Positions 1 through 25,727 are shown, numbered from the stretch's first letter. The stretch: DNA of 28,143 nucleotides from a virus (IMGVR_UViG_3300028287_000374:1-28143); one strand, 5' to 3'. The notes: generated by a model from the sequence alone, not told the origin. Numbers and translations: made by a program.

Positions 1-232
1 CTTCACCCAACGCATGTTGATTGTCATCCTCCAATAGGCCTCGAATAATCTCTTTCTTTGAGTTTAATGTTAACCTAGATAATATCGCGCTCTGTCTATA
101 TGTGTATTCATTAATATCAGGGCTTTGACCTATTAGCTCGTTGTCACCAAGTAATTTAGCAACCTGCCCAAATATAAAATGACCACCTGCGCCGGGCAAG
201 AATATCAAATCTCTTTTCGGAGTATCAAACAT
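1..232 (-). CDS. Hypothetical protein, 3' end cut off by window edge
   Basis: An open frame of 77 codons starts with ATG at 232 and runs leftward off the window without a stop. The visible N-terminus contains the stretch LIFLPGAGGHFIFGQVAKLL, a hydrophobic strand followed by a Gly-rich turn and helix. This resembles the first beta-turn-alpha unit of small nucleotide- or PAPS-binding proteins, but it is not a proper Walker A motif and I do not assign a family. An AGGA-like ribosome site lies about 9 nt before the ATG, and the start overlaps the stop of the epimerase gene by 8 nt, so it belongs to the yggX operon. No function is proposed. Confidence 0.6.
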   Translation of the reverse strand, partial: MFDTPKRDLIFLPGAGGHFIFGQVAKLLGDNELIGQSPDINEYTYRQSAILSRLTLNSKKEIIRGLLEDDNQHALGE

Positions 233-1139
233 CTGTTATATTCCTATAATAATCTCTTATTCCGTCGGCTTGTACAATTTTAGGTTCCCATCCCAGTAGC
301 TTTTTTGCTTTTGATATGTCTGCAAGTGTTTCGTTTGCATATCCTTTTGGCTTCTCTACATGTTCTACAATTAAATCTGGAACTGTTTCACGCAGGATAT
401 CTACTACGTTGTTTACTGAGATATTAGTTCCAGTACCCAAGTTGAATATTTCACTTTTTACTTTACTTTCCATACTTGCAATAACACCACGTGCAACATC
501 ACTAACGTGAATATAATCACGCTTTAGTTCACCGTCGCCGTGTACTGTTACAGGCTGTCCTTCACGTGCAAGTCTGCCAAACTTAGCAATCATTAATCCT
601 TTATCATCACACCCAGGTTGTTCTGGTCCATAAACTGTAAAGAAACGAACTACTGTATAGTTAACATCAAACATATTCTTATACTGTCTACATAGATGCT
701 CACCAAACAGCTTAGTCATAGCATAGTAGTTAAGTGGATCTGGTTTATGATAAGGTTTATGTGGCGCTGGATTATTTCCGTAAATTGAACTACTACTTGC
801 ATATACAAACTTACGAATACCAACAGCATGTGCAGCTGTTAAAATGTTTCGTGTGCCTGTAACATTATCATCATAATAGTCATCGGGATTAACAAAGCTA
901 TCTGGAATACGAGGCCTTGCTGCTAAATGAACTATAAAGTCTTGCCCAGCAGATGCCATTACACACTTTGCTGCATTCTGTATGTCGCCTTTGATATACT
1001 TGATATTCTTAAAGTCTTCTGGTTTCTCTGCTTTATCTAGAACGGTTATTGCATAACCTTTACGTTGTAATTGCTTGACAACTTCACGCCCCACAAATCC
1101 AGCTCCGCCTGTGACTAAGACTTTACCCTTTAACTGCAT
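225..1139 (-). CDS. NAD-dependent sugar-nucleotide epimerase/dehydratase
   Basis: A 304-aa extended short-chain dehydrogenase of the UDP-glucose 4-epimerase / dTDP-glucose dehydratase type. The N-terminal Rossmann motif GGAGFVG (residues 11-17) binds NAD, GDIQNA follows beta-3, the catalytic region shows SSSSIYG and YAMTK (the YxxxK pair), and VVRFFTVYGP is the usual substrate-side strand. Length is normal for the family. Such enzymes convert nucleotide sugars in the cytoplasm for surface glycans; in a phage it may feed glycosylation of DNA, virion or host envelope, which is inference. The gene overlaps the upstream thioesterase gene by 17 nt, with an AGAGGT ribosome site inside that gene's end. 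The exact sugar cannot be read from the sequence. Confidence 0.92.
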   Translation of the reverse strand: MQLKGKVLVTGGAGFVGREVVKQLQRKGYAITVLDKAEKPEDFKNIKYIKGDIQNAAKCVMASAGQDFIVHLAARPRIPDSFVNPDDYYDDNVTGTRNILTAAHAVGIRKFVYASSSSIYGNNPAPHKPYHKPDPLNYYAMTKLFGEHLCRQYKNMFDVNYTVVRFFTVYGPEQPGCDDKGLMIAKFGRLAREGQPVTVHGDGELKRDYIHVSDVARGVIASMESKVKSEIFNLGTGTNISVNNVVDILRETVPDLIVEHVEKPKGYANETLADISKAKKLLGWEPKIVQADGIRDYYRNITDV

Positions 1140-1518
1140 TAATTACCTCTTTTGGCACTCTGACCACTTTTCTATCTTTGTTTATGAGAGTGAATCTAAC
1201 CGTTCCTGTTAAACAGTTAGTGTATTCTTTACTTTTTGCATCTCTATGTTTTATAGTTACAAGTATACTTATGCTTCCGGATGATATGCTTTCTAACTCA
1301 CCCCATGCTTCAAAGTAGTTATGTGGAAATGCAGGTGATATGAATTTTAAATCCGCACTATTAGTTACAGCAAGAGTATCAGGCATATCGCTCAAAAATA
1401 ACTCATTAATAAATGTCAATGCTGCAACATCGGCTTGTTCAAATACCCATGCACCCCTAACTGACCCATTACCGTTAATAGTATTGCCAGGTATGTAACC
1501 TTTTAATAGTAGCTTCAT
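1123..1518 (-). CDS. YciA-like hotdog-fold acyl-CoA thioesterase
   Basis: A 131-aa single hotdog domain. Residues about 11-30 (NTINGNGSVRGAWVFEQADV) match the YciA/acyl-CoA hydrolase signature N-x-NG-x(3)-GGW-(I/V)-x(2)-Q-x-D, including the Asp (QAD) that acts in catalysis in this family. The later part, ADLKFISPAF through SISILVTIKHR, corresponds to the conserved F-(L/I)-x-P strand and the following sheet. Family members hydrolyse acyl-CoA thioesters to free acid and CoA in the cytoplasm, usually as hexamers. The start shares an ATGA overlap with the yggX stop, implying translational coupling. A lipid- or CoA-directed role during infection is inference; the first Gly of GGW is kept and the second is Ala, a mild divergence. 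Confidence 0.8.
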   Translation of the reverse strand: MKLLLKGYIPGNTINGNGSVRGAWVFEQADVAALTFINELFLSDMPDTLAVTNSADLKFISPAFPHNYFEAWGELESISSGSISILVTIKHRDAKSKEYTNCLTGTVRFTLINKDRKVVRVPKEVINAVKG

Positions 1519-1799
1519 GTTAACTTTGGGATTGCAGGATCAATAAAGTCATCTGGCATTTCAATTTCTTCTCCTTCAAACAAGAACTTGTTACGTTGTT
1601 CTGCTAAGAATTTTCGAGCCCAGTCATCCATTAAGTTTAGCCTGTTTTCATTAATGATCATAGTCTGAATGTTAAGCCATTCGTCCCATGCTGCTGAACT
1701 TACGTTCTCAAATATGTGTTGTCCATCAGCACCAGGAAACGGTGCTTTCTCTAATGCTGTTAATTCTTTGTTGTACTTAGCGCACATAACTTTAGCCAT
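1515..1799 (-). CDS. yggX: YggX-type Fe(II) trafficking / oxidative damage protection protein
   Basis: A 94-aa protein, close to the 91 aa of Escherichia coli YggX. Diagnostic features are the single N-terminal Cys (C6, equivalent to the conserved Cys near the YggX start), the PFPGADGQHIFENVS block (YPGELGKRIYNEIS in YggX), the AWDEWLNIQTMIINENRLNLM block (AWxxWxxxQTMLINExxLNxM) and the FLFEGEEIE tail. YggX protects iron-sulphur clusters from superoxide and is part of the SoxRS response in enteric bacteria. Here it heads a coupled operon with the thioesterase and epimerase, behind its own promoter and a GGAG ribosome site. Identification is firm; the benefit to the phage (protecting host metabolism during infection) is inference. 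Confidence 0.93.
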   Translation of the reverse strand: MAKVMCAKYNKELTALEKAPFPGADGQHIFENVSSAAWDEWLNIQTMIINENRLNLMDDWARKFLAEQRNKFLFEGEEIEMPDDFIDPAIPKLT

Positions 1800-1825
1800 A
1801 GTTATTCTCCATTCAATTTATACTT

Positions 1826-1854
1826 AGTATAACATAAAAATATTATGATTGCAA
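1826..1854 (-). promoter_or_regulatory. Sigma70-type promoter of the yggX operon
   Basis: Read on the minus strand: -35 TTGCAA (1854-1849), a 17-bp spacer and -10 TATACT (1831-1826). Predicted start is near 1819, giving a ~20-nt leader with GGAG before the yggX ATG at 1799. It lies in the divergent region shared with the plus-strand small-gene operon. Confidence 0.6.
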
Positions 1855-1920
1855 GTATTATTTTTCTTGACATTGTGTCACAGTTGCATCAGACGCATAC
1901 CGAGTCTTCGCAGAATGCAG

Positions 1921-1949
1921 TTGTTTTTGGTGTTTTTTAGTGCTATATT
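1921..1949 (+). promoter_or_regulatory. Promoter of the plus-strand small-gene operon
   Basis: TTGTTT (1921-1926), 17-bp spacer and TATATT (1944-1949) fit a sigma70 promoter with a start near 1956. An overlapping TATACT at 1949-1954 is an alternative -10 box. It is the only convincing plus-strand promoter in the window. Confidence 0.5.
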
Positions 1950-1955
1950 ATACTA

Positions 1956-2100
1956 AATAATAGTAGAGAAACACATTATCGTTTCACTATTCGGCACTGG
2001 GAAAGACCAGAGCAGGCGCAGACTGCTTTATCAAACGAATGACGCTGTGAAAAGACACAGGGTATTGCTTTCCTCAAGCATCCTAACATGGAGAAATAAA
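1956..2100 (+). promoter_or_regulatory. Structured 5' leader (candidate cis-regulatory RNA or sRNA)
   Basis: About 145 nt separate the predicted transcription start from the first ATG at 2101, unusually long for this compact genome. By eye it can form an outer helix TCGTTT (1979-1984) with AAACGA (2033-2038) closing two hairpins: CTGG-GAAAGA-CCAG (1997-2010) and GCAG-N7-CTGC (2012-2026). Two further hairpins follow: CTGTG-AAAAGA-CACAG (2045-2060) and TGCTT-TCCTC-AAGCA (2066-2080). The last exposes a UCCUC loop resembling an anti-Shine-Dalgarno sequence, 15 nt before the GGAG (2090-2093) of the first gene. I do not recognise a known riboswitch family. No energy calculation was possible. Confidence 0.4.
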
Positions 2101-2286
2101 ATGACACTAAACGTATTTGGTGCCTTAGCAAATCTTTTTGGCGGACGCAAGATGTCTGCAAGTTACAGAAAAGATTTACTGACTTGGGCGAAAATTGAAT
2201 ATGCAAACGACTGGCAGTTTGCTTACAACTATATGATTGAAAACGATGGGCAAGCGCCTACTAGACACACACGAGGAATAAACTAA
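2101..2286 (+). CDS. Small protein, first gene of the plus-strand operon
   Basis: A 61-aa protein. The ATG at 2101 is chosen because GGAG lies 7 nt before it; an upstream in-frame ATG at 2047 has no ribosome site and lies inside the leader hairpins. The N-terminus (MTLNVFGALANLFGG) is a short amphipathic or hydrophobic helix; the rest (YRKDLLTWAKIEYANDWQFAYNYMIE) is a predicted helix rich in Trp and Tyr. No family recognised. The stop overlaps the next start as TAATG, so it is very likely co-translated with the DUF1127 gene. Confidence 0.7.
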   Translation: MTLNVFGALANLFGGRKMSASYRKDLLTWAKIEYANDWQFAYNYMIENDGQAPTRHTRGIN

Positions 2287-2534
2287 TGCTTAATAGTATT
2301 ATCACATCACTAATTAACTTTAATAAAAATAGAGAGTATAGAGCGGCTGTTCGTACTACTATCAAACAACTTAATGAACTAACTGATTATGAACTAAATG
2401 ATATTGGTATCGCACGTGGCGATATTTGGCATATCGCACATACTTCATACAAGAAACCAGATCAAGTAACATTGTCTGATATTTCAGAAATGACAAATAT
2501 TGAAACAAACGACAACTTGAAAGGTTTTGTATAA
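2286..2534 (+). CDS. DUF1127-domain small protein
   Basis: An 82-aa protein. Residues about 30-55 (KQLNELTDYELNDIGIARGD) match the DUF1127 (YjiS-like) signature L-(S/T)-D-x-E-L-x-D-I-G-(I/L)-x-R-x-D-I. DUF1127 proteins are short proteins common in alpha- and gammaproteobacteria, linked in some species to stress adaptation, small-RNA biology and phosphate or carbon metabolism. The C-terminal extension of about 25 residues after the domain is longer than in the minimal proteins. It is joined to both neighbours by TAATG overlaps. The domain assignment is good; its role in a phage is unknown. Confidence 0.82.
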   Translation: MLNSIITSLINFNKNREYRAAVRTTIKQLNELTDYELNDIGIARGDIWHIAHTSYKKPDQVTLSDISEMTNIETNDNLKGFV

Positions 2535-2716
2535 TGGCTACACTAGTAATGAATAAAACATCTAACTTAGGTAAGATAGTAAGTAGAGGCTTACTTGCAT
2601 TTGCAATGGGCGTATGGGCATTTGGTGAATCAGCAGGTCGTGCAAGAGCGGCTGAAGCACTTTGGAGAGAAGGCTTCCACGAAGAAGCAAAACGTTTAAT
2701 GTTGGAGAACAAATAA
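2534..2716 (+). CDS. Small protein, third gene of the plus-strand operon
   Basis: A 60-aa protein with a hydrophobic middle (IVSRGLLAFAMGVWAFGESA, about residues 16-35) followed by a charged helix containing ALWREGFHEEAKRLM. The hydrophobic part could touch a membrane but is short and broken by Arg and Glu. The C-terminal helix pattern (basic-x-x-G-hydrophobic-x3-A) recurs in the next gene. TAATG overlaps on both sides tie it into the operon. No family recognised. Confidence 0.7.
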   Translation: MATLVMNKTSNLGKIVSRGLLAFAMGVWAFGESAGRARAAEALWREGFHEEAKRLMLENK

Positions 2717-2850
2717 TGTTTAAGAGATTTATGAAAGCAATGGAATACAGAAGTTATTGCATGGCAATTAGAGAATTGAGAAACAAAGGTATGTATAAAC
2801 AAGCTGATGAAATTTCAGAGTTTAAACATAACATGTATCCAACACATTAA
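2716..2850 (+). CDS. Small protein, last gene of the plus-strand operon
   Basis: A 44-aa protein starting at the ATG of a TAATG overlap with the preceding gene; a longer in-frame start at 2662 would bury 18 codons in that gene and is rejected. GGAG lies 8 nt upstream (in gttggagaac). It is highly basic and helical, with IRELRNKGMYKQADEIS matching the spacing of WREGFHEEAKRLM in the 60-aa neighbour, so the two may share an ancestor or a fold. Function unknown. Confidence 0.65.
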   Translation: MFKRFMKAMEYRSYCMAIRELRNKGMYKQADEISEFKHNMYPTH

Positions 2851-2876
2851 TAAAATAAACACATCAATAAAAAGAA

Positions 2877-2898
2877 AAAAGACCCTTTCGGGTCTTTT
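2877..2898. terminator. Bidirectional intrinsic terminator
   Basis: A 9-bp stem, AAAAGACCC / GGGTCTTTT, with a TTTC loop has an A-run on one side and a T-run on the other, so it can stop transcription from both directions. It sits between the stop of the plus-strand operon (2850) and the stop of spoVR (2902), exactly where two convergent units meet. Confidence 0.88.
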
Positions 2899-2901
2899 CC
2901 A

Positions 2902-4401
2902 TTATTTACGTTTACGTTTACATTCATACACATCAAGTGTTTTATCATTATACTCACTGTGTAGTTTTACATCATAACCCCACAATTTTTGTACATGAGT
3001 TAATACTTGTTCTGCATCACCACGATTTAATCGCTTACCATTAAAAGAGTTATGCGTAAGTGTAAGTTCACGTGTCTCTGCAACATCCGCTTCTGTTACT
3101 TGAATGTCTGGTATCATTGCTGCTGTTACATATTGCTGTGACAATGCTTTGCGTACATTCTTGTATCCTCGTTCATTATGAATAGAACTCACATGATAAT
3201 CATCATAATATTCTTCATCATGCAGAACAAACAATTTCCAATCACGAATAACTTTAGGTCCCAAGAACTGTAAGATAGCACTTTCATCACGATAGTTTGC
3301 AACGATGTCTTTAATCGTATCACGCCAGTTAGTACCTACGATATGTGGGAACCATGCTTCGTCTTCTTTGTCTGGAGTTTCACATACACGTTGAATATCT
3401 TTGAGAATAGCAAAGCCAAGTGCATACGGGTTAAATCCGCTGTAGTGCTGTGAGTTAAAGTTCGGTTGATATAGAACTGCACTGTGTAAAGCAAAGAACT
3501 CCATCATTGCGCCATCATCAACTTTTCCTTGGTCATATAATTCATTAAAGATGTAATGGTGTGTGAATGATGCAAAGCCCTCGTTCATAACTTTTGTCTG
3601 ATATTGTGGATAGAAGTATTGTGCAATACGTCTAACAATACGACATAGCTCACGTTGCCATGGTGCAAGAACAGGAGAATGCTTTTCTAAGAAGTATAGC
3701 AAGTTTTCTTCTGGTTCTGGCGGCCAAGTATTTTGCGTAGATTTTTCTTCTTTTGCTTTCTTTGGTACTGTATTCCACAATTCATTAACTTGTGACTGTA
3801 AGTACTCACTACGTGCTTTTTGTTTTTCATACTCACGTCTTGCATTTAATTTTGGTGGACGCTTGTACTTGTTGATAGACTGATACTGAATAGCATGACA
3901 TGCATCAAGTGTTTCTTCTACGATATCTGCACCATAACGTTCTTCGCATTCTCTAATATACTTCTTAGCAAATAACAAATAATCAACAATTGCATCAGGT
4001 GATGTCCACTGTTTAAATAGATAATTGTTCTTAAAGAAGTGATTATGACCAAATGCGGCATGCGCAATCACAAGTGCTTGTGTAGTCATAGAGTTTTCTT
4101 CCATCAAATAGTTAATACACGGATCACTATTGATAACAAGTTCATATGCAAGTCCCATACGACCTGCTTGATATTGTTGCATATTAGAAATGAAACTCTT
4201 ACCGTAACTCCAATGGTCATACATCAATGGCATCCCAACTGAACTGTAAGCATCAAGCATTTGTTCTACTGTAATGATTTCAATCTGATTAGGGAAACAA
4301 TCTAGTCCCATGTCTTCGACTGCAATCTCCTCACAAGCATCCATCACTGAGTATAACTTATTAAAGTCCCAATGTGATCCTGTGTAAAGTAACTTGCTCA
4401 T
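2902..4401 (-). CDS. spoVR: SpoVR family protein (YcgB-like)
   Basis: A 499-aa protein, close to Escherichia coli YcgB (about 510 aa). Recognisable SpoVR features include the N-terminal EEIAVEDMGLDCFPNQIEII, the YDHWSYGKSF motif, the AHAAFGHNHFFKNNYLFKQW metal-site-like His block, the FASFTHHYIFNELYDQG block and NPYALGFAILKDIQRV. SpoVR was named for spore cortex formation in Bacillus, but non-sporulating bacteria carry it next to prkA and yeaH as a starvation or stationary-phase gene; the biochemical activity is not established. The start overlaps the yeaH stop as ATGA. The gene looks full length and intact, and is the last of the three-gene operon before the terminator. Confidence 0.95.
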   Translation of the reverse strand: MSKLLYTGSHWDFNKLYSVMDACEEIAVEDMGLDCFPNQIEIITVEQMLDAYSSVGMPLMYDHWSYGKSFISNMQQYQAGRMGLAYELVINSDPCINYLMEENSMTTQALVIAHAAFGHNHFFKNNYLFKQWTSPDAIVDYLLFAKKYIRECEERYGADIVEETLDACHAIQYQSINKYKRPPKLNARREYEKQKARSEYLQSQVNELWNTVPKKAKEEKSTQNTWPPEPEENLLYFLEKHSPVLAPWQRELCRIVRRIAQYFYPQYQTKVMNEGFASFTHHYIFNELYDQGKVDDGAMMEFFALHSAVLYQPNFNSQHYSGFNPYALGFAILKDIQRVCETPDKEDEAWFPHIVGTNWRDTIKDIVANYRDESAILQFLGPKVIRDWKLFVLHDEEYYDDYHVSSIHNERGYKNVRKALSQQYVTAAMIPDIQVTEADVAETRELTLTHNSFNGKRLNRGDAEQVLTHVQKLWGYDVKLHSEYNDKTLDVYECKRKRK

Positions 4402-5684
4402 GTTTCTTTCCTATCTTTAGCGAAAATCTTTCTGAATATCGGATATACATCTGATGGTTTCTGTACTCGTTCTGCTACCATGTTTTGATTACTACCGACA
4501 ATATTATCATACACTTCCATTAACTGATGTGCAAAGCCGCCAAGCATTCCCATTCCTCTTGGTTCTCCAACTTCAATATAAGAGAAGAACTGAGATACTG
4601 GTAGAATATCATTCTGTAGAATTTCAAGTAATTTACCATTGTCATCGCTCCAGTTATCACCGTCACTTGCTTGTGCAAAATATACATTCCACTCACTCGG
4701 AGAATAACGTTCACTCATAATATCTTTAGCAAGTTCAAATGCACTAGATACAACTGTACCACCACTCTCACGTCCTGTAAAGAATTCTTCTTCATCACAT
4801 TCTTTAGCTTGTGTATGGTGACGAATGAATACTGCATCGACACGTTTGTACTTACGAGAGATAAACAAGTTAAGCATCATAAAGAAACGCTTTGCTAAAT
4901 CTTTATGGCTCTCTGTCATTGATGCTGAAACATCCATAATAAAGAATACAACAGCTTGTGAACTTGGCTTCGGTGATGTTGTGAAGTTATTATAACGTAA
5001 GTCTACTGGATCAATGAACGCTACCGCTCTAGCACGAATGCGAAGACTACTAATTTCTTCTTCAAGTTCTAAACGCTTATCTTCATCTTCTTCTGTTTCT
5101 AGTAGTGCTTCTAGTTCACGTATCTTACGCATCTTAGGCTTCTGTAGAGCGATCCTACGACCCATAGAGTTAATCATTGACTTCTCTAGATTAAGTTGTG
5201 CAGGATTGCCATCATTAGTGAAGCCACTACGATGCATTTCTACTTTCTCTACAACTTTGTTTTCTTTAGAAATCATATGAGGAAGTTCTAAGTCTTCGAA
5301 TAAGATGTTTACAAATTCATCATTAGATAATGCAAATTGAAAATCATCTTCGCCCTCACCGTCTGGTGAACCCTGAGATCCACCTCCGCCTTCGCCACCC
5401 TGCGGCTTCTGTAGTAAATCACCCTCTACAAAGTCTTCATTGCCTGGAAGTACGATATCACGTGAGCCACTGTCTGACTTGTGACCAAATGATGGCTCAC
5501 TGATACCTTTACGATTGATAGTAACGTCTTGGTCATCGCCAGATCCTTTGATAGAGCGACCACCTAATTTTTCGTGAATACTTTTACGTATTTCATCTTT
5601 GGTGCGTTTGAGAAACTTTTGTCTGTTTCCCGAACTCTTACCACCTGGATTTTTGCGTCTGTCAATAATAGTATTGTTTGGCAT
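4398..5684 (-). CDS. yeaH: YeaH/YhbH family (DUF444) VWA-type protein
   Basis: A 428-aa protein, the same size as Escherichia coli YeaH (427 aa). The N-terminus DRRxNPGGKSSGNRQKFLKR is the DUF444 signature; a Gly-rich acidic linker lies at about residues 95-115; the C-terminal half is a von Willebrand A-like domain with the metal-site motif DVSAS (251-255) after a hydrophobic strand, and SGGTVVSSAFELA and ASDGDNWSDD further on. YeaH works with the kinase YeaG (PrkA) in the response to prolonged nitrogen starvation in Escherichia coli. It lies 10 nt after prkA, with AAAGGA as ribosome site, and is coupled to spoVR. Confidence 0.95.
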   Translation of the reverse strand: MPNNTIIDRRKNPGGKSSGNRQKFLKRTKDEIRKSIHEKLGGRSIKGSGDDQDVTINRKGISEPSFGHKSDSGSRDIVLPGNEDFVEGDLLQKPQGGEGGGGSQGSPDGEGEDDFQFALSNDEFVNILFEDLELPHMISKENKVVEKVEMHRSGFTNDGNPAQLNLEKSMINSMGRRIALQKPKMRKIRELEALLETEEDEDKRLELEEEISSLRIRARAVAFIDPVDLRYNNFTTSPKPSSQAVVFFIMDVSASMTESHKDLAKRFFMMLNLFISRKYKRVDAVFIRHHTQAKECDEEEFFTGRESGGTVVSSAFELAKDIMSERYSPSEWNVYFAQASDGDNWSDDNGKLLEILQNDILPVSQFFSYIEVGEPRGMGMLGGFAHQLMEVYDNIVGSNQNMVAERVQKPSDVYPIFRKIFAKDRKET

Positions 5685-5694
5685 TATATGTCCT

Positions 5695-7629
5695 TTAGTT
5701 AGACTTCTGGACTCGCATATACCATTCTACTAGTCGTTTAACTTGACGTTCTGTATAACCCTTTTCAGTCATACGTGAAACGAAATCATCATGCTTGCCT
5801 TGGTCATCTTTTGATTTCTTGCTACCGAATGAAATTACTGGAAGTAGTTCTTCTGTTCCTGCAAACATTTTGTTTTCGATAACTTCTTTCATCTTTTCAT
5901 ATGCTGTCCAAGGAGGGTTACTACCTTCATACTTTGTTCTCGCACGTAGAACCCAATTCACTACTTCATTTCTAAAGTCTTTTGGATTAGCAATACCAGC
6001 TGGCTTTTCAATCTTTTCTAATTCTTCATTAAGAATAGAACGGTCAAATAAGTTGCCAGTATCTGGGTCCTTGTAATCGATGTTCTGAATCCAATGATCT
6101 GCATAATCGATATAACGATCAAACAAGTTCTGTCCGTATTCATTATAGCTTTCTAAGTATGCTTTCTGAATTTCATTACCTACATCTTCTGCGTACTTAG
6201 GAGCGAGATAATCTTTGATATAGCCAATCAAACGTTCTTCTGTTTCTTCTGGAAACTGTTCACGCTTGATAGCATTCTCTAGTACGTGCATAAGATGTAC
6301 AGGATCTGCCGCAACTTCATTTGCATCATGATTGAATGTCTGAGACAAAATCTTAAATGCGAAACGTGTTGACATACCTGCCATACCTTCGTCTACTCCT
6401 GCTACGTCACGATACTCTTGCATCGTCTTTGCTTTAGGATCAACATCATGTAGGTTCTCACCGTTGTATACACGCATCTTTGCAGGAAGATTACTATTTG
6501 TATGTGTCTTTAGACGTGACAAAATAGAGAACTGTGCAAGCATATCTAGTGTATGTGGCGCGCAACGACTGTCATCAAGGCCAGATGATTTAAGCATCTT
6601 GTCATAGATAGATGTTTCTTCTGTAACACGTAGACAGTAAGGGACTTTAACGATGTATACACGATCCAAGAACGCTTCGTTGTTCTTGTTGTTTCTGAAT
6701 GCTTCCCATTCGCTTTCGTTAGAGTGTGCAACTACTACGCCGTTAAATGGGATTGCTGAGATACCCTCAGTACCCATATAGTTACCTTCTTGTGTCGCTG
6801 TTAATAGTGGGTGTAGAACTTTGATTGGTGCTTTAAACATCTCAACAAATTCCATCATGCCCTGGTTACCACGACATAGACCGCCTGAGAACGCATATGA
6901 ATCTGGATCATTCTGTGAGAAATACTCTAGCTTACGAATATCTGTTTTACCAACCAGTGATGAAATATCTTGATTGTTATCATCGCCCGGTTCTGTTTTC
7001 ATAATACCGATTTGTTTCAGTTTCGATGGATACATCTTTACTACTGAGAACTTAGAGATATCACCGTCATATTCTTCCAGGCGTTTGACTGCCCAAGGCG
7101 AAAGAAGACCAGATAAGTAACGCTTTGGAATGCCGTATTCAGTTTCCATATCATCACCAAAATCTTTTGGATCGAAAAGTCCTAGAGGCGTTTCATATAC
7201 TGGAGAGATTTCATCGCCAGCTTTTAGAACATACATAGGATGCTGTTCCATTAATTCTTTTAGTCGTTCTGCAAGAGAAGACTTACCACCACCAACTGGA
7301 CCAAGAAGATAAAGAACTTGCTTACGTTCTTCTAGTCCTTGTGCCGAATGACGAAAGTATGCTACTAGACGTTCTACTGCTTCTTCCATTCCAAAGAAAT
7401 CTTTAAACGCTGGGTAGACTTTGATTGTTCTATTTAAGAAGATACGACTTAGACGTTGGTCTGTGCTTGTATCTACTGTTTCTGGCTCACCGATTGCATT
7501 AAGCATTCGTTCTGGAGCAGTTGCGTATGCTAATTTATCTTTTTTGCACAACTTCAAATAGTCTTCTAACGACATTTCATCTTGTTGCTTACTAGCATAT
7601 ACTTTACTGAATTTTTTTAATACGCCCAT
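5695..7629 (-). CDS. prkA: PrkA family serine protein kinase / AAA+ protein (YeaG-like)
   Basis: A 644-aa protein, the same length as Escherichia coli YeaG. An N-terminal AAA-type PrkA domain carries Walker A GPVGGGKSS (110-118) after a conserved leader, FFGMEEAVERLV; the blocks GNQGMMEFVEMFK, LLTATQEGNY, FLDRVYIVKVPYCLRV and MSTRFAFKILS are typical of the family. The C-terminal PrkA domain, said to resemble protein kinases, is complete. Whether family members act as kinases or as AAA+ proteases is debated, so the reaction is left open. AGAGGAC lies 12 nt before the ATG. It heads the prkA-yeaH-spoVR unit, which has the same gene content as the bacterial stress locus. Nothing suggests decay. 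Confidence 0.95.
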   Translation of the reverse strand: MGVLKKFSKVYASKQQDEMSLEDYLKLCKKDKLAYATAPERMLNAIGEPETVDTSTDQRLSRIFLNRTIKVYPAFKDFFGMEEAVERLVAYFRHSAQGLEERKQVLYLLGPVGGGKSSLAERLKELMEQHPMYVLKAGDEISPVYETPLGLFDPKDFGDDMETEYGIPKRYLSGLLSPWAVKRLEEYDGDISKFSVVKMYPSKLKQIGIMKTEPGDDNNQDISSLVGKTDIRKLEYFSQNDPDSYAFSGGLCRGNQGMMEFVEMFKAPIKVLHPLLTATQEGNYMGTEGISAIPFNGVVVAHSNESEWEAFRNNKNNEAFLDRVYIVKVPYCLRVTEETSIYDKMLKSSGLDDSRCAPHTLDMLAQFSILSRLKTHTNSNLPAKMRVYNGENLHDVDPKAKTMQEYRDVAGVDEGMAGMSTRFAFKILSQTFNHDANEVAADPVHLMHVLENAIKREQFPEETEERLIGYIKDYLAPKYAEDVGNEIQKAYLESYNEYGQNLFDRYIDYADHWIQNIDYKDPDTGNLFDRSILNEELEKIEKPAGIANPKDFRNEVVNWVLRARTKYEGSNPPWTAYEKMKEVIENKMFAGTEELLPVISFGSKKSKDDQGKHDDFVSRMTEKGYTERQVKRLVEWYMRVQKSN

Positions 7630-7669
7630 ATTAATTACTGTCCTCTGTTATTATATTCATATGTAACTA

Positions 7670-7677
7670 TACTTATC
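7670..7677 (-). promoter_or_regulatory. Possible degenerate late promoter before prkA
   Basis: GATAAGTA on the minus strand differs by one base from the GATAAATA late motif seen before structural genes, and lies 40 nt before the prkA ATG. A TATAAT without a good -35 box also occurs in this gap. prkA may equally be read through from the promoter at 8541-8569. Confidence 0.3.
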
Positions 7678-7679
7678 AT

Positions 7680-8522
7680 TTAAGTTGTGGTGAAGATATT
7701 ACCAACACTACCACTGAACGTGAAGTGTCCTATGTGATCTAGATTGATACATGGATCTAACCATACTTCACCACCAATAGCTTGCCAACGTCTACAGAAA
7801 GCATAGTCTTCTGATAGATAACGCTTAGTCTCCTCTTCGTGCATACAATCAAAGAATAGATACGTCCACTTAGCAAATTCTTCATCTAACAATAAATCAT
7901 TGTTGAAGTATAACTCAGGATATGCCGCAATCATTTTCATAATGACTTCGCGTTTAATTAGCATAAATCCTGTTGCAGCATCTTTTAGTTTTACAAGTCC
8001 ATCTTCTGTGCGAATTGTTCCTTGTTCAGACTTATCAAAGTTCCATTCAAAATTTAGAGCATAGTTAGATGCGAGTCGTTGTAGATCATGCATTGTTACA
8101 GAATCATTATCAGATGCGGCTTTAGTCATTTTGTCCCAATTCAAATCTTTCTTTGGGTATGCACCAACAATAATATCTTTGTCATGTTGTAACATATGAA
8201 GAATATCAATAGGATCAAAGTTAATATCAGCATCGATAAACATTAGATGTGTTGCTTGCGGATTTGCCATCATGTAAGCAACCATATGACACCTCGCACG
8301 TGAGATAAGAGACTCGTTTGCTGATGTTGTTACTGAATAGGGAATTTCATGCTTCGTATAAAGCATATGTGCTTTAGACCATGAACGAAAGAATGGCTCT
8401 GTTACCTGTCCGCCGTAGCATGGAGTACAATAATGTACATGTGTTTTTTTGATAAATTCTAAATCAATGTCTTTACGGTGCTTCCGAAGACTTTCAATTA
8501 TGTCACTCAACTGTGTATCCAC
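7680..8522 (-). CDS. GT-A fold glycosyltransferase
   Basis: A 280-aa protein beginning HVHYCTPCYGG, then SVTTSANESLISRARCHMVAYM and HLMFIDADINF, where DAD (97-99) is the metal- and nucleotide-sugar-binding DxD motif of GT-A enzymes. The C-terminal block YLSEDYAFCRRW gives the conserved acidic EDY region expected of the catalytic base. This arrangement is frequent in phage and bacterial glycosyltransferases of the Anp1/GT2-like kind. The start is GTG (8520-8522): no ATG lies upstream in frame before the promoter, and the predicted leader is only 12 nt with no clear ribosome site. It may modify DNA, virion or cell-surface glycans, possibly with the epimerase at 225-1139 (inference). Confidence 0.85.
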   Translation of the reverse strand: MDTQLSDIIESLRKHRKDIDLEFIKKTHVHYCTPCYGGQVTEPFFRSWSKAHMLYTKHEIPYSVTTSANESLISRARCHMVAYMMANPQATHLMFIDADINFDPIDILHMLQHDKDIIVGAYPKKDLNWDKMTKAASDNDSVTMHDLQRLASNYALNFEWNFDKSEQGTIRTEDGLVKLKDAATGFMLIKREVIMKMIAAYPELYFNNDLLLDEEFAKWTYLFFDCMHEEETKRYLSEDYAFCRRWQAIGGEVWLDPCINLDHIGHFTFSGSVGNIFTTT

Positions 8523-8573: not shown

Positions 8574-9257
8574 TTATTTTGAAGATTTCTGATCTGCTAT
8601 CCACTTTTTAGCTCTACGGTCGCTTGGTGTAGACATTAAGAATTTGTCAATAGCTCTATCAACTTCTAAGAAGTTTGCTTTGCGGTCTGGATCTTCAAGA
8701 CCACCACTATTATCTACAATGTGAAAGTTTCCTGCACCAAAAAGCTGTTGAAACTTCATAAGATTTTGCTGAACTATTTGCCACATCTTAGTTACTTGCT
8801 CTTTAGGAAGACTTCTAGCTCTTGCTGAATTACGATCCTGTGCTACATCTTCACTTGTATTAACAAATAACATCATAGTTTCATAACCTAATGATTTTAA
8901 TTGTTCACTCGCTTTTTGTACCTTCGCTACGTCTTTTCCGGTACCATCGATAATAAGTCCTAGACGGCCTTCAATATGAGATGCTTCTTTATTTTTTGTA
9001 ATCTGCTTCGCACGATTGCGAATTTCTTGACCTTCATCTGAATAGATATTGTCAGGTGTTAATTCTTTGCCTGCTTTCCCCATCATGTATTCATAGACAT
9101 CATCTGAATTTACTGTACGTAGTCCGGTGCCACGTAGCATCTTATTAGCTACGAATGATTTGCCACTACCTGGACCACCAGCTAAAAATACTGCTTTGAA
9201 GATATGAGGGTCATTGACCCCCTCTTCTACTGGTTTGATGATTTCATTTACATGCAT
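8574..9257 (-). CDS. P-loop kinase, zeta-toxin / polynucleotide-kinase-like
   Basis: A 227-aa protein with Walker A GGPGSGKS (27-34) after the strand AVFLAG, followed by VNSDDVYEYM, where the Asp pair sits at the position of the catalytic base in AAA_33/zeta-type kinases, and LGLIIDGTGKD as second strand. ARARSLPKEQV supplies the Arg-rich lid. Such kinases phosphorylate nucleotide or nucleoside-sugar substrates; close relatives are common in T4-like marine phages with unproven substrates. A late promoter lies 29 nt upstream and GGAG serves as ribosome site, so it is probably expressed late. The substrate cannot be told from the sequence. Confidence 0.82.
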   Translation of the reverse strand: MHVNEIIKPVEEGVNDPHIFKAVFLAGGPGSGKSFVANKMLRGTGLRTVNSDDVYEYMMGKAGKELTPDNIYSDEGQEIRNRAKQITKNKEASHIEGRLGLIIDGTGKDVAKVQKASEQLKSLGYETMMLFVNTSEDVAQDRNSARARSLPKEQVTKMWQIVQQNLMKFQQLFGAGNFHIVDNSGGLEDPDRKANFLEVDRAIDKFLMSTPSDRRAKKWIADQKSSK

Positions 9258-11378: not shown

Positions 11379-11689
11379 TATGTAATTAATCCTGATTTTT
11401 CTGGGACGACAAGACCAGATGTTGCTGCTCTATATGCGTCTGATGTTTCTTTATTCGTTTTTAACACTGCAACAACTTTAGTTGCTTTGATATTGACTTC
11501 GCCTTCACTATCTCCGGTAATAGTAAAGTTCTGAAATGCGGCGCCTTGAGGTCCAATTGCAATAGTAAGTGGGCGGGCAAGTGTAATGTACGCATCATCT
11601 TCTTTTACTAGTTTGCCTAATACTTCTTGTCCACTCATTAATGAAAGTGTTACGATATCGTTTGTGTTATATTTCTTTTCAATTAGCAT
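11378..11689 (-). CDS. Sm/LSm-like small protein
   Basis: A 103-aa protein whose N-terminal half (NDIVTLSLMSGQEVLGKLVK, then DDAYITLARPLTI) follows the Sm1 pattern of a bent beta-sheet: V-x-L-x-L-x-(S/N)-G-x-(E/V)-(V/L)-x-G-x-(L/V), then a strand with an aliphatic-x-L-x-(N/R)-P-L. Similar proteins occur in T4-like marine phages as conserved genes of unknown function. The C-terminal part is Thr/Lys rich. It starts 11 nt inside the radical SAM gene and is coupled to PAAR. RNA binding is a family possibility, not shown; a structural role is equally possible given the operon. Confidence 0.55.
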   Translation of the reverse strand: MLIEKKYNTNDIVTLSLMSGQEVLGKLVKEDDAYITLARPLTIAIGPQGAAFQNFTITGDSEGEVNIKATKVVAVLKTNKETSDAYRAATSGLVVPEKSGLIT

Positions 11690-12971
11690 TTTTGCCCTCT
11701 GTTAATAATTTCCACCATTCCGGTTCTATTTTTTTATAATTCATCATCTTCTTGTTTGCAAGAAAATAATTTCGTTCTTGTAGTTTAAGTCTATCAACGA
11801 ACTTACCATTTTCATGTATTACTTCTTTATCATTGAGTACAGTGTCCATAGAGTTAATAATAAGATTTAGATTACTATATGCCCTTTCACTTATATCACT
11901 TGTATTTATTACTTTATTAAGTCTGTGCTTAATTATCGGCTTAATATCCGTCGGAATATTAGCAACTGAAAGCCATTTAGGTGATGTTACCATATTTACT
12001 GCCCATGTATCTAATATATTTGGATCATTAAATGATTTTAAATAGTCAATCATAAGTCCCATACTGTAAACATTTAATATACTAACTGTAGTAGCTATAC
12101 TACACCTGTTACTAATACCTGGTAATTCATTTCTCTCATTGAAATAATCAATATATTCTCTTATATTACGTTGCTGTTCTTCCCATACTGATCCAGTTCG
12201 CATGTATTCGCCAAGTTCACCAATAGCATCAATACTGAATGATATGTTAATTGATGGGAATTCATTCCATAACTGTCTAATCTCATCAGTAAGTCTTATA
12301 GTTGCATTAGTTACATATGATATAGACGGTCTAATATTATTTTTTATTAACCATCTTAGATAGTCATAGTGTTCTTGTATTAATAATGGTTCACCGCCCG
12401 TAAACTGTATATATTCTAAATCATGTGATACATCATGTAGTCCGTTCCAAAACGTTTCATCGTGTATCCAGTCTGATCCTAACTGTCGTTTTCTTATCCA
12501 ATCTTTATCTAAAGTTTCAAACATCAATAAAGAATCTTCTTTAAGTAATTTGTTTGAACTCTGAGAAGAGCAACTTCTACATGCAAGATTACACTTTGCT
12601 CCCAATTTAAGTTCAAAAGACTTCAATGTGTGATTATCTTTAGTAACTTTTATATCTTTAAAGTGTTCATTGGCCCACATCCGATGTGAGAAGGCACTAT
12701 TCTTCTCATACATGTAGCAGTTTTTGCAACCAGGAGATGGAATATTATTTAATGAGTTATATCGAAGTTGTTTCCATTCTTCGTGTTCATTAAAAATTTC
12801 TGTTATAGGCAAGTCTTGATGTTTTGGCACCAATGAACCGTCTATCTCTTTGCCCAGTACAGGAGACGTTCGCCAATTGTAATTACAACATGCAATTGTA
12901 TGCCCACGTGCAGTTAAATTCAAATGAGAGTGTGGTAAAATACAAAAATATTTGCCACTCTTATCAGCCAT
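11679..12971 (-). CDS. Radical SAM enzyme with N-terminal Cys-rich twitch/SPASM-like region
   Basis: A 430-aa protein. The radical SAM motif CNLACRSC (C127, C131, C134, CX3CX2C) binds the 4Fe-4S cluster and GGEP (192-195) contacts SAM. The N-terminal region carries C10, C28, C29 and the pair C82/C85 in GCKNCYMYEK, as in twitch/SPASM-type proteins that hold a second cluster, here before the core rather than after it. These enzymes do radical chemistry, often on peptides or proteins. It overlaps the 149-aa gene by 8 nt and the Sm-like gene by 11 nt, so it is made together with fibre and spike proteins. The substrate is unknown; a virion protein or the 149-aa neighbour is a guess. Confidence 0.88.
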   Translation of the reverse strand: MADKSGKYFCILPHSHLNLTARGHTIACCNYNWRTSPVLGKEIDGSLVPKHQDLPITEIFNEHEEWKQLRYNSLNNIPSPGCKNCYMYEKNSAFSHRMWANEHFKDIKVTKDNHTLKSFELKLGAKCNLACRSCSSQSSNKLLKEDSLLMFETLDKDWIRKRQLGSDWIHDETFWNGLHDVSHDLEYIQFTGGEPLLIQEHYDYLRWLIKNNIRPSISYVTNATIRLTDEIRQLWNEFPSINISFSIDAIGELGEYMRTGSVWEEQQRNIREYIDYFNERNELPGISNRCSIATTVSILNVYSMGLMIDYLKSFNDPNILDTWAVNMVTSPKWLSVANIPTDIKPIIKHRLNKVINTSDISERAYSNLNLIINSMDTVLNDKEVIHENGKFVDRLKLQERNYFLANKKMMNYKKIEPEWWKLLTEGKNAN

Positions 12972-25040: not shown

Positions 25041-25727
25041 TTAATATGTTGTGATGATGTGATCTGCGATACCATGTTTTAGTGTCTCCTCTGGATTTAA
25101 CCAACAATCACTTTCTGGAAGTAGCCATTTACGAATGTATGCTTCATTCTTACCAGTGCATTTCTTGTAGTGATCCATCATACGTTCTGTTGACAGTTCG
25201 AACTCTTTGACAATAGACATTAGTTCGTGTTCTTTACCACGTGAACCCCAAGAGTATTGGTGTGACATTACGCTAGTGTTCTGTGTAATATAACGATGTC
25301 CTTTTTCACCTGCCATCATTAGCAATACGCCGCAACTTGCAATCATGCCCATACCATATGTATATACAGGAATGTCACTCTGCTTAATTACGTCAATCAG
25401 ATGGAATGCACTGTTCACTGCTCCGCCAGGAGAGTTGATGTACAGATGAATTACTTCTGGTCTTGTTTCTGCTGGCATCATATTGTATTCCATAATCATC
25501 TTGACTAATGGCATACAGTTTTCTTGGTTAAATTCTTTGTCCATAAAAAGAACGCCTGAGTCATATAGCATTTCACCGGGCTTCTTTGGTGGTTGAGGCG
25601 GTTGCGGCAGAGGCATTGGTGGGGGCGCTGGTGCCACTTTTGGTGTTGGAATTACCTTTGTTGTCTCTACTGGCTTTTTAGCCGGAGCTTTTTTTGTTAC
25701 TTTTTTCTTTTTAGGTTCTTTAGCCAT
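25041..25727 (-). CDS. ClpP-like serine protease with Pro/Lys-rich N-terminal extension
   Basis: A 228-aa protein. Residues about 52-228 are a ClpP fold: LYINSPGGAVNSA (95-107), the nucleophile S131 in MIASCGVLLMMAG, H156 in VMSHQYS and D207 in PESDCWLNPEE complete the triad. The first 50 residues are Lys-rich then Pro-rich (APAPPPMPLPQPPQPPKKPG), an extension absent from bacterial ClpP. The protease may act on phage or host proteins with a host Clp ATPase, or in virion maturation; the position between primase and helicase favours an early or regulatory role (inference). An AGGA site precedes it, 12 nt after primase. Confidence 0.87.
   Translation of the reverse strand: MAKEPKKKKVTKKAPAKKPVETTKVIPTPKVAPAPPPMPLPQPPQPPKKPGEMLYDSGVLFMDKEFNQENCMPLVKMIMEYNMMPAETRPEVIHLYINSPGGAVNSAFHLIDVIKQSDIPVYTYGMGMIASCGVLLMMAGEKGHRYITQNTSVMSHQYSWGSRGKEHELMSIVKEFELSTERMMDHYKKCTGKNEAYIRKWLLPESDCWLNPEETLKHGIADHIITTY

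Follow-up and report, generated by a model that had tools for sequence, protein, structure and literature searches.

PrkA (YeaG in Escherichia coli), YeaH and SpoVR (YcgB) are encoded on bacterial chromosomes, where their genes presumably form one prkA-yeaH-spoVR operon in Pseudomonas aeruginosa PAO1 and are divided in E. coli, with yeaG-yeaH together and ycgB elsewhere. YeaG and YeaH cooperate and quiesce metabolism, acting as a metabolic brake (PMC10954441); they need RpoS or RpoN promoters, and nitrogen-starved E. coli mutants survive more poorly and restart faster (PMC10954441, PMC4664914), the delta-yeaG, delta-yeaH and double mutants having like phenotypes (PMC4664914). Here, we analyse the same three genes, hereafter the trio, in a virus record of IMG/VR (IMGVR_UViG_3300028287_000374:1-28143), the entire 28,143 bases of which constitute the window, and show that in the phage lineage of the window the trio is an accessory cassette of ~4.8 kb. 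The chromosomal operon of Pseudomonadota and its counterpart in Thermomicrobium share with the window the equivalog families, the gene order and the key residues, whereas the window trio is distinguished by being phage-borne, by protein clades of its own, by its phage context and by gain and loss of the cassette.

Parts of the trio have already been annotated one by one in the phages phiYS40, phiLo and RsoM2USA (PrkA and SpoVR). In the Thermus phages phiYS40, phiLo, MN1 and Lalka8/27, genes for PrkA, SpoVR and a VWA protein are adjacent and individually annotated; however, their products are shorter than those of the window (23%–29% identity for PrkA and SpoVR, 28%–36% over the matched part of YeaH), and lie in the order VWA-SpoVR-PrkA, near head and terminase genes; the Thermus set is a separate acquisition. 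In the lytic Ralstonia jumbo phage RsoM2USA (344 kb, latent period of 270 min), ORF28 (SpoVR) and ORF30 (PrkA) share a strand, and the 1,355 nucleotides (nt) between them would suit a YeaH gene; its authors list the genes singly rather than as a module (PMC8504454). The unannotated records of the huge uncultured phages LR745206, LR756502 and LR756504 (~635–642 kb) encode full-length PrkA, YeaH and SpoVR that are, respectively, 57%–62%, 37%–42% and 48%–52% identical to those of the window, with SpoVR unlinked in LR756502 and interrupted by an intein in LR756504. By contrast, the PA5oct-like phages, which are the nearest cultured kin of the window, gave no PrkA or SpoVR match; this holds for Paride as well, which replicates in dormant cells and requires host RpoS and (p)ppGpp (PMC10761892). 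The open-access full-text literature, a scope that leaves aside subscription papers and preprints, yielded no report treating the trio as a phage module, and its description as an all-or-none 4.8-kb cassette in jumbo phages is new here.

Gain and loss of the trio as a unit

Virus sets were gathered via PrkA or SpoVR queries, except in the neighbour-gene and portal searches, and the contigs compared are metagenomic, the Thermus phages excepted. When the gene at positions 8574–9257 of the window was used as the query instead of the trio, 26 loci were obtained, several of which display the gene order of the window with the trio absent. The clearest case is the trio-minus locus L304, which matches the window at 86% identity over 1.6 kb on one side of the site and at 90% over 1.2 kb on the other. 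There, the stop codon of the upstream gene lies immediately before the terminator that stands after spoVR in the window, which defines the limits of the cassette (Table 1). A tree built from four backbone proteins requires three or more switches between presence and absence of the trio (3–3 across the 5%–95% range of bootstrap trees), and no partial trio was found among the neighbour-gene kin. Taken together, the empty site in close kin, the repeated changes of state and the lack of partial sets in these kin show that the trio is an accessory cassette, discretely present or absent, that has entered or left a single site as a complete set in the lineage of the window. Thus, the proposal of the first-pass annotation, made from the window alone, that the phage carries a whole host stress module is upheld with respect to completeness, but the module is accessory, given that close kin lack the whole set. 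PrkA was found in none of 27 trio-minus or portal-related records, including those of 328, 192, 168 and 146 kb, although incomplete contigs could hide a copy. That the cassette benefits the phage is suggested indirectly, by the purifying selection described below.

In three trio-minus loci (L306, L312 and L313), the site equivalent to positions 2870–7690 of the window is filled by small unrelated genes; an example at a trio-minus site encodes a protein of 73 amino acids with the Cys/His motif CDCPAFKKCKH. The trio site may be a hotspot of accessory genes.

Joint retention of the three genes in phages

The three genes of the window are contiguous on one strand, with a 10-nt gap followed by a 4-nt ATGA overlap. 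IMG/VR contains at least 262 stretches coding for a relative, and contigs reach 578 kb. We collected 90 distinct viral PrkA proteins, and in each of the 66 cases with at least 5.5 kb downstream, yeaH and spoVR come next after prkA, co-oriented with it and in that order, the median gaps being 12 and −4 nt. Loci found through SpoVR that had room upstream included none without the partner genes; YeaH never served as a search query. PrkA is encoded in 16 of 50,697 records of cultured or deposited phages: eleven belong to Thermus phages, four to huge uncultured phages and one to Enterobacter phage LAU1. XacN1 and Atu_ph07, both within this collection, had no match. In LAU1 (MN688132, positions 1–3308), yeaG-yeaH lie at the extreme edge of a record labelled 'complete', look like enterobacterial chromosomal DNA (85% identity to Klebsiella) and probably represent host sequence next to a prophage.

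A fourth conserved partner gene was not found: other genes near the trio recur in at most 10 of the 62 representative loci, and do so within subclades, indicating that the trio is the unit while its surroundings change. Moreover, SpoVR is located ~245 kb away from PrkA-YeaH in the huge phage LR756502, and the Thermus phages have kept all three genes in another order, so that joint retention goes beyond mere hitch-hiking within an operon. In Lalka8, the distant trio (L064:5651–9866) stands between the genes for a minor head protein and the large terminase subunit (TerL), a surprising position for a stress module. A YggX-like gene is present in 8 of the 62 trio-bearing representatives; because the trio-minus L304 and L320 have it as well, YggX and the trio are not tied.

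Phylogeny and selection

The closest bacterial relatives of the trio are alpha-, beta- and gammaproteobacterial, with PrkA identity of at most 70% to any bacterium found; all three genes are present at 76 of the 80 best bacterial loci and occur in the same order in Thermomicrobium (T. roseum). In trees of each protein and of the joined alignment, phage copies constitute several deep clades interleaved with bacterial ones (4–5 label changes), the window being placed within a large phage-only clade. The three gene trees agree (Mantel r 0.80–0.87; 40 of 47 strong splits shared; one to two conflicts per pair), and this agreement, together with the interleaved deep clades, argues for old possession and co-inheritance. 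With such long outgroup branches, and with bacterial sequences picked for their similarity to the window, we draw no conclusion as to which way the genes moved between phages and bacteria. Two short viral contigs, L220 and L225, group inside bacterial clades.

The ratio of nonsynonymous to synonymous substitution rates (dN/dS) between lineages is ~0.02–0.14 for all three genes, indicative of purifying selection. The 66 intact trios, the agreeing trees and the dN/dS values bear out the earlier suggestion that the set as a whole has been selected for joint function, and the intact trios and dN/dS values contradict the notion that relatives carry inactivated copies.

A jumbo phage of the T4 superfamily

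The window encodes a primase, a DnaB-like helicase, an exonuclease, a tape-measure-like protein and an Mtd-like protein, a phage context, and the G+C content across prkA, yeaH and spoVR (0.37–0.40) is like that of the remainder of the contig. Being a 28-kb fragment, the window has no capsid, portal or terminase genes, and its head genes are known only via two sister contigs, of 342 kb (L008, with a PrkA 88% identical to that of the window) and 246 kb (L038), both of which carry the T4-type gp23 capsid and gp20 portal genes and the large terminase gene. The closest cultured relatives of the window helicase (53%) and primase (36%), as well as of the portal (53%) and terminase (55%) of the sister contig, are the PA5oct-like Pseudomonas jumbo phages, including Paride. 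The window is accordingly from a genuine phage, a T4-superfamily jumbo phage near PA5oct, and the initial 'T4-like' label stands for the superfamily but not for classical T4. The T4 late promoter (TATAAATA) has no match within the window. The kin of its DUF6267 protein and helicase are largely aquatic phages, and its lineage may be of marine origin.

Several other genes of the window, all on the minus strand, deserve mention. A ClpP-like serine protease (25041–25727), extended at its N terminus by a low-complexity stretch, adjoins the primase and helicase genes and could be either a prohead protease or a host-type ClpP. A radical SAM protein of 430 amino acids is encoded among tail-like genes (11679–12971), and a 36%-identical version takes its place in the close kin L304 and L305. 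The YggX-like Fe(2+) trafficking/oxidative damage protein (1515–1799) is without a PHROG match.

Table 1. Coordinates of the trio, its flanking signals and the SpoVR inteins (window positions unless a contig is named; aa, amino acids)
Feature	Position	Strand	Remarks
PrkA/YeaG, AAA+ ATPase with PrkA C-terminal domain	5695–7629	−	644 aa; Pfam, NCBIfam, invariant residues
YeaH/DUF444, VWA-fold protein with complete MIDAS	4398–5684	−	428 aa; Pfam, NCBIfam, AlphaFold2, Foldseek
SpoVR/YcgB	2902–4401	−	499 aa; Pfam, NCBIfam, invariant His/Glu
Intrinsic terminator	2875–2900	−	directly 3' of spoVR; same stem-loop 3' of the upstream gene in L304
Sigma-70-like promoter match	7650–7679	−	ATGATA-18-TATAAT, 10/12; within the 50 nt separating prkA from the upstream gene; weak evidence, similar matches being common hereabouts
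Upstream flanking gene, PHROG 1574, function unknown	7680–8522	−	its stop codon is the cassette start
All-or-none cassette, ~4.8 kb	2906–7689	−	ends ± ~10 nt; present in the window, absent from L304
SpoVR inteins	L051:11283–14051, L062:18516–20420, L052:11020–13431; L107:4406–7186		phages (first three); bacterial contig (L107)

Conserved features of the three proteins

All three proteins of the window are matched by Pfam (AAA_PrkA, E = 7e-175, and PrkA C-domain, 5e-68; DUF444, 2e-154; SpoVR, 1.5e-159, plus SpoVR_C) and pass the NCBIfam equivalog cut-offs (PRK15455, 1191 bits against a cut-off of 576; PRK05325, 549 against 396; PRK11767, 752 against 679). Chance is excluded, and the complete, tightly ordered set recognized in the first-pass annotation is confirmed. 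The sizes stated there were accurate for PrkA, whereas SpoVR falls short of the ~510 amino acids given (Table 1). PHROGs holds one family per trio protein, each of unknown function. As noted at the outset, the Walker A motif (GPVGGGKSS) and the DVSAS motif of the metal ion-dependent adhesion site (MIDAS) are intact in the window. All 62 phage and all 48 bacterial representatives share PrkA residues G110, K116 and S117 (Walker A), E263, R323 and K426, and the MIDAS of YeaH (D251, S253, S255, T310 and D341), which is complete, and SpoVR residues H114, H119, E274 and H281 are invariant in the 62 phage representatives. The numbering of K426 is identical in E. coli YeaG, in which the K426A substitution abolishes the effect on growth recovery (PMC10954441). 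The terminator after spoVR is strong in the window and in L007, but is not a general trait, with a terminator-like structure in only 8 of the 62 phages.

The AlphaFold2 model of YeaH (predicted local distance difference test score, pLDDT, of 81) comprises a VWA domain and a helical insertion, and Foldseek matched it to VWA domains, among them Rea1/MDN1-MIDAS and NorD of the NorQ-NorD machine. YeaH thus has the fold and the MIDAS of the VWA partner in an AAA+/VWA pair. In the MoxR pairs NorQ-NorD and RavA-ViaA, an AAA+ ring works with a MIDAS-bearing VWA partner on a target (PMC9976466, PMC13036017); PrkA, by contrast, is matched by AAA_PrkA and weakly by AAA_22 and AAA_16 but by no MoxR model in Pfam. 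The putative design of the trio, with an AAA+ motor, a MIDAS adaptor and a third component, nevertheless resembles such pairs. Three PDB entries (9xip, 9xiq and 9xir) contain a PrkA relative of 692 amino acids, labelled 'Serine protein kinase', in a multi-chain assembly (30 chains over the three entries); a paper describing them was not found in the open literature.

The predicted model of SpoVR (pLDDT of 86) had no significant match to solved PDB folds, nor did its sequence match any PDB entry; assignment to a known metallopeptidase was accordingly rejected, the idea of a zinc enzyme being a motif impression only. The sole viral structural match with E < 0.001 is A0A3Q8HYQ4, a protein of 617 amino acids, the length of phiLo SpoVR. 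Two of the phage SpoVR copies with inteins (Table 1) are interrupted at NEG^C, and the remaining phage copy and that of the bacterial contig at NEGWA^C. Since inteins lodge in or beside the NEG motif, their positions suggest that it is the likely working site of SpoVR.

Possible roles of the cassette

We tentatively favour, as a plausible reading of the gene and protein features, an AAA+/VWA/SpoVR machine by which the phage would impose or exploit an RpoS-type quiescent state. PrkA would form an ATP-driven AAA+ ring, YeaH would serve as its VWA/MIDAS adaptor, gripping the target, and SpoVR, with its invariant His/Glu site, may be a third working part, acting as either client or effector. In infected cells, the trio would act as in starved bacteria, that is, as a metabolic brake within the RpoS programme, and the phage would keep its host quiescent and stress-tolerant, or replicate in an already quiescent host, during a long infection. 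The long-infection idea fits RsoM2USA, in which at least two trio genes coincide with the latent period given above (PMC8504454). The initial suggestion that the set keeps starved cells productive is unsupported, as it runs against the published role of YeaG and YeaH as a brake (PMC10954441). Several observations weigh against the machine and quiescence reading. Close kin manage without the trio. Purified PrkA of Bacillus anthracis forms ATP-dependent oligomers but showed neither kinase nor protease activity, which renders the Ser/Thr kinase label doubtful, and PrkA has been assigned to AAA+ Clade III rather than to MoxR (PMC13001217). SpoVR may not be a metal enzyme, considering the lack of a solved fold match and its binding of RNA in Bacillus subtilis (PMC12456014). 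Finally, prkA deletion in Mesorhizobium raised stress tolerance (PMC5041497), so effects differ between hosts.

That the cassette is bacterial DNA introduced by misassembly or carry-over, or a passive cargo, is exceedingly improbable. Bacterial carry-over is real in some records, such as the yeaGH edge of LAU1 and the contigs L220 and L225 in bacterial clades, but the window trio is flanked on both sides by syntenic phage genes in many independent contigs, belongs to a phage-only clade with PrkA no more than 70% identical to bacterial homologues found, evolves under strong purifying selection and has empty-site kin, which rules out misassembly and host contamination. The cassette could instead act against host defence, stopping toxin-antitoxin or dormancy-type abortive responses from ending the infection. 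YeaG does repress transcription of mqsRA and dinJ-yafQ in nitrogen-starved E. coli (PMC4664914), and patchy presence among close kin is typical of anti-defence genes; yet the effect of YeaG on these toxin-antitoxin genes is indirect, no further known anti-defence gene was noted at the locus and no catalogued defence family was matched, the last being a weak point, as PADLOC models defence rather than anti-defence. We consider this explanation unlikely. The trio did not qualify as a defence system in PADLOC, which returned only a marginal IetA AAA match to PrkA (E = 0.0009).

General protection of the infected cell from osmotic, oxidative or envelope stress, with the YggX-like neighbour and without quiescence, has a similarly low probability: in several bacteria, mutation of prkA alters how well cells tolerate osmotic stress, salt or oxidants (PMC13001217, PMC5041497), and the YggX-family gene adjoins the trio, being found in eight relatives, but the direction of the effect varies by species and the trio-minus L304 and L320 have YggX too. 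Still less probable is a role in virion assembly, in which the trio would serve as AAA+/VWA chaperones that remodel proteins of the head or tail. Its location in Lalka8, that in phiYS40 near the terminase gene and the tape-measure-like gene two genes upstream in the window would fit such a role; however, in the 342-kb sister contig PrkA (~196–198 kb) is far from terminase (240 kb) and portal (279 kb), the trio is missing from sister phages in which the neighbouring genes are the same, and the bacterial homologues work without virions.

Implications

If the quiescence machine is indeed what the cassette encodes, a bolder, rather doubtful extension is that it would be a portable dormancy-access device, supplying the part of the RpoS programme required by a jumbo phage for replication in growth-arrested hosts, without the Paride-like reliance on the host's own programme. 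Since a large share of the operon's deep diversity is found in jumbo phages, they may also have spread it among proteobacterial lineages.

Sea bacteria are mostly slow or starved. Phage reproduction in such cells is poorly known, and the cassette would provide a direct genetic handle on it. The phage copies may also offer leverage on a bacterial system whose biochemistry, including whether PrkA is a kinase and what SpoVR does, has been unsolved for decades; this leverage comes from the constant company of the three proteins, a putative VWA adaptor with an intact MIDAS, and inteins in the most conserved motif of SpoVR.

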